Assembly: GCA_000996085.1 (NCBI GenBank)
Contig: LBYG01000024.1
Location: 1-36,695, forward strand
Direction of reading: 5' to 3'
DNA from: Parcubacteria group bacterium GW2011_GWB1_40_14
GTDB lineage: Bacteria; Patescibacteriota; Minisyncoccia; Terrybacterales; GWB1-40-14
DNA length: 36,695 nucleotides
Below, one piece after another: positions 19,312 through 20,583 of this stretch; the first letter of the stretch is position 1, and each line of letters opens with the position of its first letter. The notes beneath the pieces were generated by a model. The model was not told the origin of the DNA. It searched no databases and worked only from the letters and a program-made list of their open reading frames with translations. The position numbers were made by a program, and so were the translations under genes.

Positions 19312-19337
19312 ATAATTTATGTTATACTATATGTATG

Positions 19338-19475
19338 CCAGGTAGTGAAAATTCGACCGTTCGCCTACGGCGAACTTAACTTAATTTGCCTGGTAAATTT
19401 TTTAATACGTTAAGAATATTTTAAACTAGAAATTCGTTAATTATCAATACAAATAGTCGAATTTCTACTACCTGG
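19338..19475 (+). promoter_or_regulatory. Inverted-repeat leader element ending at the pilM start codon
   Basis: CCAGGTAGTGAAAATTCGAC (19338-19357) / GTCGAATTTCTACTACCTGG (19456-19475), 18/20 complementary; candidate -10 TATACT at 19323-19328. Confidence 0.6.
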
Positions 19476-19476
19476 T

Positions 19477-20583
19477 ATGATTTTGAATCTATTCAAGAGA
19501 AAGCCGAAGGGATTTCTCGGTATTGATATTGGAACCTCGTCAGTGAAAGTTGTGGAGTTATCTAGCACAAAAGCCGGGGTAAAATTGGAAACTTATGGCG
19601 AACTTAAGGCCTATGGTTATTTAAAAAGACTTTCTGATCCTATTCAGAGCAGTTCTTTACAGATGTTGGACAGCGAGGTAGCCGAAATGATCAAAAGGAT
19701 AATCGATGACGCAAATGTTTCAAGTACCGCAGCATCAATGTCTATTCCGGTTTTTTCTTCTTTTTTTACTTTACTGGAATTGCCGTCAATGAGCGTCAAG
19801 GAACTTGCGAGCGCGATTCCTTTCCAGGCTCGGCAGATAGTTCCAATACCTATTTCCGAAGTTGTATTGGATTGGGAAATAATCGGAAGATTTAATCCTC
19901 AAGCTGGGGGAAGTACCGTTCAAGAAAAATTACTGGTTTTATTAGTAGCTGTTCCGCGCGAAGTTGTAGATAAATATGTCCGTGTTGCTAAATTAGCCGG
20001 AGTTGAATTGCGCGGTTTGGAAGTTGAAACTTTCAGTGTGGTGCGAGCATTGTTACACGACAATCAAGAAACTAATTTATTGTTGGATATTGGGGCGCGC
20101 TCAACTAATATTACGATAGTCGATAGTGGCACTATTCGTATGAGCCACAATCTTGATATTTCGGGAAATGAATTTACTAAAACTTTAGCTCACGCGTTGG
20201 GCGTAAACATGAGACGCGCTGAAGAACATAAGATATCCCGGGGATTGGTTCAAAAAGGAGGAGAATTGGAAGCTTCCCGGGCACTCGTTCCTTTGATCGA
20301 TGCGGTCATGCAGGATGCAGAAAAAATAATGAATATTTATTATCGTAAATACGGTAAAAAAGTAGTGCGTGTGGTTTTGGGCGGGGGAAGTTCTAATCTG
20401 CCCGGACTTCGTGAATATCTTGAATCGCGTTTTGCCCGCGAAGTTGTTATAGGAGAGCCATTTTCAGCCATTAAATATCCCAATATTTTGGCACCGGTTA
20501 TACAGGAAATAGGTCCTGCGTTTTCTGTGGCTATAGGTCTTTCCTTGCGAGAAATTTTGCCGTCAAAATTAGCAGTTAAATAA
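19477..20583 (+). CDS. pilM: Type IV pilus assembly protein PilM
   Basis: FLGIDIGTSSVKVVEL, LLLDIGARSTNITIVDSG, VVLGGGSSNLPGLREYLESRF. Confidence 0.92.
   Translation: MILNLFKRKPKGFLGIDIGTSSVKVVELSSTKAGVKLETYGELKAYGYLKRLSDPIQSSSLQMLDSEVAEMIKRIIDDANVSSTAASMSIPVFSSFFTLLELPSMSVKELASAIPFQARQIVPIPISEVVLDWEIIGRFNPQAGGSTVQEKLLVLLVAVPREVVDKYVRVAKLAGVELRGLEVETFSVVRALLHDNQETNLLLDIGARSTNITIVDSGTIRMSHNLDISGNEFTKTLAHALGVNMRRAEEHKISRGLVQKGGELEASRALVPLIDAVMQDAEKIMNIYYRKYGKKVVRVVLGGGSSNLPGLREYLESRFAREVVIGEPFSAIKYPNILAPVIQEIGPAFSVAIGLSLREILPSKLAVK

Follow-up and report, generated by a model that had tools for sequence, protein, structure and literature searches.

The leader of 138 bp that precedes pilM in the window, by which is meant the whole stretch of 36,695 nt analysed here from Parcubacteria group bacterium GW2011_GWB1_40_14, is probably a non-autonomous, MITE-like derivative of a minimal GIY-YIG transposon of CPR bacteria that inserts at start codons. 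The family appears to be undescribed: neither a GIY-YIG transposon bounded by terminal repeats nor a MITE at start codons was found described in the literature searched, which took in few subscription papers and preprints.

This miniature element occupies positions 19338–19475 of the forward strand, on which all of its parts are given, and lies between pilM and a divergent ComF-like gene (18622–19311, reverse strand) recognized by domain matches to a zinc ribbon and a phosphoribosyltransferase. It is bounded by a left terminal arm, CCAGGTAGTGAAAATTCGAC (19338–19357), and a right terminal arm, GTCGAATTTCTACTACCTGG (19456–19475), which keeps a G.T / A.C asymmetry relative to the left one; the arms pair at 18 of 20 positions, as a sequence-only reading of this DNA had stated, and a repeat search returned the inverted repeat as 19335–19357 and 19456–19478 (87% over 23 nt). 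The same reading had seen TATG at both ends. The left copy (19334–19337) represents the original start-codon context and the right copy (19476–19479) contributes the start codon of pilM; the right arm ends, as claimed, one base before it, with T at 19476 and the ATG at 19477. The target gene, its start codon regenerated in this way, extends from 19477 to 20583 (+) and matches PF11104 (PilM_2, 7e-39). A TATACT box is indeed present before the left arm (19323–19328) and is −10-like by resemblance only; in G001, a genome of the same genus, TATAAT takes this position ahead of pilM. The left arm also holds the reported ORF of 14 codons (MPGSENSTVRLRRT and a stop). Its leader peptide, MPGSENSTV, was considered as a selected feature and rejected: several copies of the element carry an in-frame TAG (AATTAG, giving MPGSEN and a stop) and the ends of the frame vary, so the peptide itself is not the conserved feature.

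Inside the arms, an inner hairpin (GTTCGCC-TAC-GGCGAAC, 19359–19375) adjoins the left arm and shows compensated variation among copies, and a third segment, TAGAAATTCG, partially repeats the inner arm. Folded as RNA, the 148 nt at the element reach −48.5 kcal/mol where dinucleotide shuffles give −23 ± 3.4 (z −7.5), and the opposite strand folds nearly as strongly (z −6.5); that both strands fold well is a pointer to a palindrome at the DNA level. Within the window there are four matches to the arms, where 0.09 would be expected.

A riboswitch or attenuator specific to pilM, with mutually exclusive stems, had been the first interpretation of this structure, and it drew on observations that are sound. 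The alternative pairing is real and recurrent: the third segment exists, one base away from where it had been placed (at 19427–19436), and is matched at 8 or more of 10 positions in 29 of 48 copies, with about 3 expected, as befits leaders that switch between pairings; the fold is strong as well. The same element, however, precedes about 41 unrelated genes of this genome, and others elsewhere, stands at non-genic sites too, and is missing from the same junction in G001. No Rfam family matches it at the gathering threshold, nor does any intron family, and the unrelated target genes give no sign of an RNA family tied to one regulated gene class. Of the 55 start-codon copies in other genomes, 13 are reversed. 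This explanation, largely refuted by the copy number and the empty site, is now very improbable; the conserved fold stands, though it marks a mobile element and not a pil riboregulator. It was the aside in the sequence-only reading, that TATG on both sides might indicate a mobile element, that proved correct. The further suggestion of an invertible segment found no support, all full start-codon copies in this genome sharing one polarity.

At the level of sequence comparison, the mobility of the element is demonstrated by the comF–pilM junction of G001, which lacks it. The empty site TATAATAATAATGATGATTTGG of that genome corresponds in the window to TATACTATATGTATG, the element and TATGATTTTG, the junctions aligning as TATAAT-AATAATG-ATG (G001) and TATACT-ATATGTATG-element-TATG (window). 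G001 has far fewer copies than the host genome. Among 50 full copies of the host genome, the four flanking positions are identical on left and right in 45, 45, 48 and 47 cases, and the positions just outside them in 2–8, which demonstrates a target duplication of 4 bp; the duplicated bases are not always TATG (TGTG, CACG, TAAG, CTTG, AATG, CATG and AATA occur as well). Multiple copies, conserved terminal inverted repeats, target duplication and an empty site are all traits of MITEs and insertion sequences.

The host genome (G000; an incomplete assembly of 0.94 Mb in 38 contigs, 93% complete) gives 48 matches to the element and about 55 places in all, as counted by pattern and BLAST searches, and the arm pattern gives 114 matches, against one for a reversed control pattern. 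A search of plasmid DNA with the element gave no match. Nearly all copies were retrieved together with their surroundings, and a script paired the ends of 50 full ones; each has 20-bp ends, CCAGGTAGTGAAAATTCGAC...GTCGAATTTCTACTACCTGG, with a 4-bp target duplication on both sides. The left end is always GTGAAA and the right end, reverse-complemented, GTAGAAA, a difference that gives the element a polarity. The covariation check proposed for the arms bore out the pairing: in 67 distinct arm pairs, 93% of positions are paired, compared with 84.9% when arms are swapped between elements (maximum 86.4% in 1000 swaps), and changes on both sides of the pair occur at 11 of 20 positions. The G.T at arm position 10 and the A.C at position 11 are preserved, an asymmetry that the covariation script demanded and that an unfiltered count of 116 hits gives as 56 GA and 56 AG arms. 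The inner hairpin is present in all 50 own-genome copies and in 20 of 75 elsewhere. The arms are 94% identical among copies and the interiors 57%, against 54% for shuffled sequence; some close pairs of copies nevertheless have interiors 80–90% alike, and shorter copies of 65–160 bp have the ends only. Since the duplications are intact even at sites that no gene needs, the copies are probably too young for their interiors to have decayed in place. What these figures suggest is a long-lived population of elements in which selection would hold only the ends, as has been argued for REPINs (PMC8049555). Palindromes that share the outer ends but are much shorter (e.g. CCGGGTAGTGAAGCAAAGCTTCTACTACTCGG) were seen at L059 (~1600, minus), L119 (~1720, minus) and L048 (~4510), perhaps as minimal or decayed forms.

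Two further partial copies lie downstream of pilM in the window. A second copy of the left part of the element (21175–21268, +) is cut at AACTAG directly before the pilO ORF, which is without its first 3 residues compared with G001; a third (21848–21941, +), identical to it and cut at the same base, precedes a pilP-like ORF whose N-terminus is missing, by about 38 residues relative to G001. The two cut copies may represent either an assembly error or a real deletion. Frame-shifting or bypassing that would link the leader ORF to pilO was rejected, as stops separate both frames and no slippery site was seen.

The insertion sites are concentrated at gene starts. The right-hand duplication contains an ATG in 41 of 50 own-genome copies, nearly always that of a gene, and the genes include pgk, serS, gpmI, greA, ftsA and rpmJ. 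Protein profiles begin at the residue of the duplicated ATG (SerS, residues 1–407 on profile positions 1–418; L36, 1–37 on 1–37) or, for Pgk, GpmI, GreA, FtsA and L29, within a few residues of it. Among 75 copies in 19 further genomes of the class, 55 adjoin a start codon (42 forward and 13 reverse), again with four-base duplications, and the target genes are not the same from genome to genome. The own-genome DNA fetched contains 403 non-coding TATGs away from starts and at most 262 candidate start TATGs; since the former outnumber the latter, a plain preference for TATG is insufficient to explain the bias, for which a Fisher test gives about 7e-14 with coarse ORF calling and four off-start cases counted by eye. 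A TATAAT-like box stands 6–12 nt upstream in some left flanks and is missing in others, so that insertion does not depend on leaderless promoters. Three explanations of the choice of start codons are conceivable: exposed DNA at the starts of transcribed genes, a longer target motif, or survival of only those insertions that leave the gene readable. For annotation, the consequence is a false ATG (MPGSENST...) ahead of about 40 genes of this genome.

Such placement raises two possibilities in which the folded leader matters as RNA. The first is a domesticated regulon, that is, once-mobile elements now kept as a folded mRNA leader regulating about 41 genes. It would accommodate the start-codon position, the single polarity in this genome and the housekeeping targets, along with the covarying arms, the constant inner hairpin and the recurrent third segment; it is at odds with sites that are mostly lineage-specific (that of pilM being empty in G001, where copies are far fewer), with reversed copies and differing target genes in other genomes, and with duplications that are intact at non-genic sites also, and it is regarded as quite improbable. 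The second complements a start-codon transposon and does not exclude it: RNase III may cut the long stem from the mRNA, in the manner of rRNA intervening sequences, leaving a message that is nearly leaderless, its 5' end just ahead of the real AUG. This is a tentative proposal, and a doubtful one, to which a terminal stem of 20 bp, almost perfect and closing 1 nt short of the AUG, lends plausibility and from which the conserved mismatch of the arms, not a perfect duplex, detracts. It has a parallel in CPR bacteria, whose rRNAs have short, unclassified, stem-forming insertions and intron-less insertions with GIY-YIG ORFs that match no intron (PMC11270868). Those insertions may be relatives of the present elements, which differ from them in residing in mRNA genes at start codons and in having defined ends and a target duplication.

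The probable mobilizing enzyme of the start-codon elements is suggested by what lies between the same ends elsewhere. On contig 38 of the host genome they surround a version of 306 bp whose single ORF encodes a GIY-YIG nuclease (PF01541, 4.6e-10); the full element measures about 300 bp and is filled by an ORF of 86 aa. In a PF01541 profile search of six genomes, G032 and G009 proved to share this arrangement, flanked by duplications of TACG and TGTC, and the same ends enclose a GIY-YIG ORF in G085 and G198 too. A scan of 85,488 genomes for homologues of the nuclease yielded 80 loci. Such ends lie within about 35 bp of the ORF in 11 of the 11 closest homologues in named genomes, two of which (L127 and L132) have ends with deviating bases; the hosts include Doudnabacteria, Harrisonbacteria, Portnoybacteria, Yanofskybacteria and others. 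In total, at least 16 loci have a GIY-YIG within the same ends, some possibly duplicates (G085 and L130 may come from one organism, and each of the pairs L105/L131 and L115/L135 from one genome). Flanking inverted repeats with a score of at least 13 occur at 29 of 77 GIY-YIG loci and at 5 of 415 shifted controls, the other 48 loci being without a strong flanking repeat. Usually one nuclease-bearing copy is found per genome, against tens of empty copies. Across three elements, 40 of 86 positions of the protein are invariant, the GIY-YIG motif included, and its profile matches UPF0213 and the structure-specific endonuclease SLX1 in PDB. No separate target-binding domain that would explain the choice of start codons is evident in the 86 residues.

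The familiar GIY-YIG proteins are nucleases of homing, repair or restriction; such enzymes are not known to join DNA, and we know of no described transposon that works with one. The ORF could be a passenger or a homing nuclease, and the element might be moved by another enzyme. The absence of the ORF from most copies speaks for this, and the genome-wide search for transposases covered Y1_Tnp only. It is nonetheless unlikely, considering that the same ORF and no other is found between the ends in several genome families, that it fills the element, that the type of end tracks the phylogeny of the nuclease, and that a Y1 transposase (Y1_Tnp, Y1/RAYT) is absent from G000, G001 and G162. Homing is further disfavoured: the motif residues of GIY-YIG homing endonucleases are present, but the many unrelated target genes, without a match to an Rfam intron family, do not resemble a single cognate site or an intron.

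A transposon mobilized by its GIY-YIG nuclease might work as follows. The two ends would pair with each other in a single-stranded hairpin or cruciform, whose stem the nuclease would recognize and cut at its base, and the excised element would then join a cut staggered by 4 nt, preferentially in a TATG at a gene start, thereby duplicating the four bases. Recognition of a folded hairpin or cruciform is suggested by the pairing ends with their preserved mismatch, by the unrelated interiors and by the cutters of branched DNA in the nuclease family. With the duplication at a start codon, the upstream signals face one ATG copy and the element, while the gene retains an ATG of its own beyond the element. 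We infer that the host gene is still expressed; landing there would offer an upstream promoter to a nuclease gene that apparently lacks one, at little cost to the host gene.

Comparison with known systems points to both kinship and novelty. Like MITEs and non-autonomous insertion sequences, the elements are short and multicopy, have terminal inverted repeats and a target duplication, and possess a putative autonomous relative with the same ends; unlike them, they insert on start codons and have interiors unrelated between copies, and the only ORF found in the putative autonomous relative is that of an 86-aa GIY-YIG nuclease in place of a known transposase. REPINs, with their RAYT (TnpA-REP, Y1) transposases (PMC3116915, PMC8049555), likewise form in each genome a population of palindromic elements of ~100 bp with conserved ends and usually one enzyme gene; the present elements differ in their GIY-YIG enzyme, their 4-bp target duplication and their use of start codons instead of generic extragenic sites, and mobilization by RAYT was rejected, Y1_Tnp being absent from this genome. 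With GIY-YIG homing endonucleases and the UPF0213 and SLX1 folds the nuclease shares its catalytic domain; it differs from them in having no separate DNA-binding domain, and its element occurs in many unrelated genes and not in an intron or single homing site. An attC site or integron cassette was rejected by inspection, the ends being without a GTTRRRY core and target duplications being made.

In a sample of 289 genomes from the class, 23 contain exact TTTCTACTACCYGG, in up to 50 copies, and none the control pattern; outside the class it is rare, a stricter pattern having matched in about 350 other genomes of the phylum only two, both from one family. The ends differ at more distant GIY-YIGs (ACCCCGTTAGA..., CCCAGTA..., CCCCCACACC...), and the end type follows the nuclease tree with 3 changes, against 14.6 when shuffled, although a branch with type A on one side appears in only 54% of bootstraps. 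Start codons are duplicated by the CCCAGTA type as well (ATGA at L155 and L157; TATG after TATAAT at L162). On balance, the evidence favours a new class of transposon of ~300 bp, whose sole protein, a GIY-YIG of 86 aa, would act as transposase on hairpin-forming ends, directed to start codons (in sister types to other gene starts) and leaving the host gene intact. If so, there would be a superfamily across CPR bacteria, Bacteroidota and others, made up of several end types that are each paired with a separate nuclease clade; these would be among the smallest autonomous transposons known, and a catalytic role of the nuclease, if proven, would establish a new class of enzyme for DNA transposition. 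By choosing sites in which the start codon is duplicated, such an element would make dozens of essential genes its carriers, unbroken, in a reduced genome. Many of the small GIY-YIG genes in CPR bacteria would then have a possible role, and the movement of DNA by a structure-specific nuclease could readily be studied in this system.

Several other GIY-YIG loci were observed. ORFs with ACCCCGTTAGA/TCTAACGGGGT ends occur at L167, L182 and L205 (also L146, L153, L159, L161 and L169), some of them, by eye, within genes (a tyrosine recombinase at L167 and an IS91-like transposase at L182/L205); they are possibly a second element type or unknown introns. The proteins of L182 and L205 are identical although one locus belongs to a Chryseobacterium genome and the other to a viral contig, perhaps through recent transfer of the ACCCCGTTAGA type or because of a prophage. 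At L186 (2450–2800), a GIY-YIG whose ends are GCCCCTCACCCAG, flanked on either side by GCTTA, is inserted at the 5' start of a tRNA gene that stays intact. The window itself has a different GIY-YIG ORF (15396–15641), which was rejected as partner of the element, being without such ends; it lies beside tRNA-Arg in a locus (15200–15933, minus) between repeated tRNA 3' ends, with a second GIY-YIG-like start further on, and may be part of a further GIY-YIG element, one that makes use of the end of a tRNA. An ORF with a LAGLIDADG_3 domain is located between two tRNA-Ser genes at 17050–18078 of the window.
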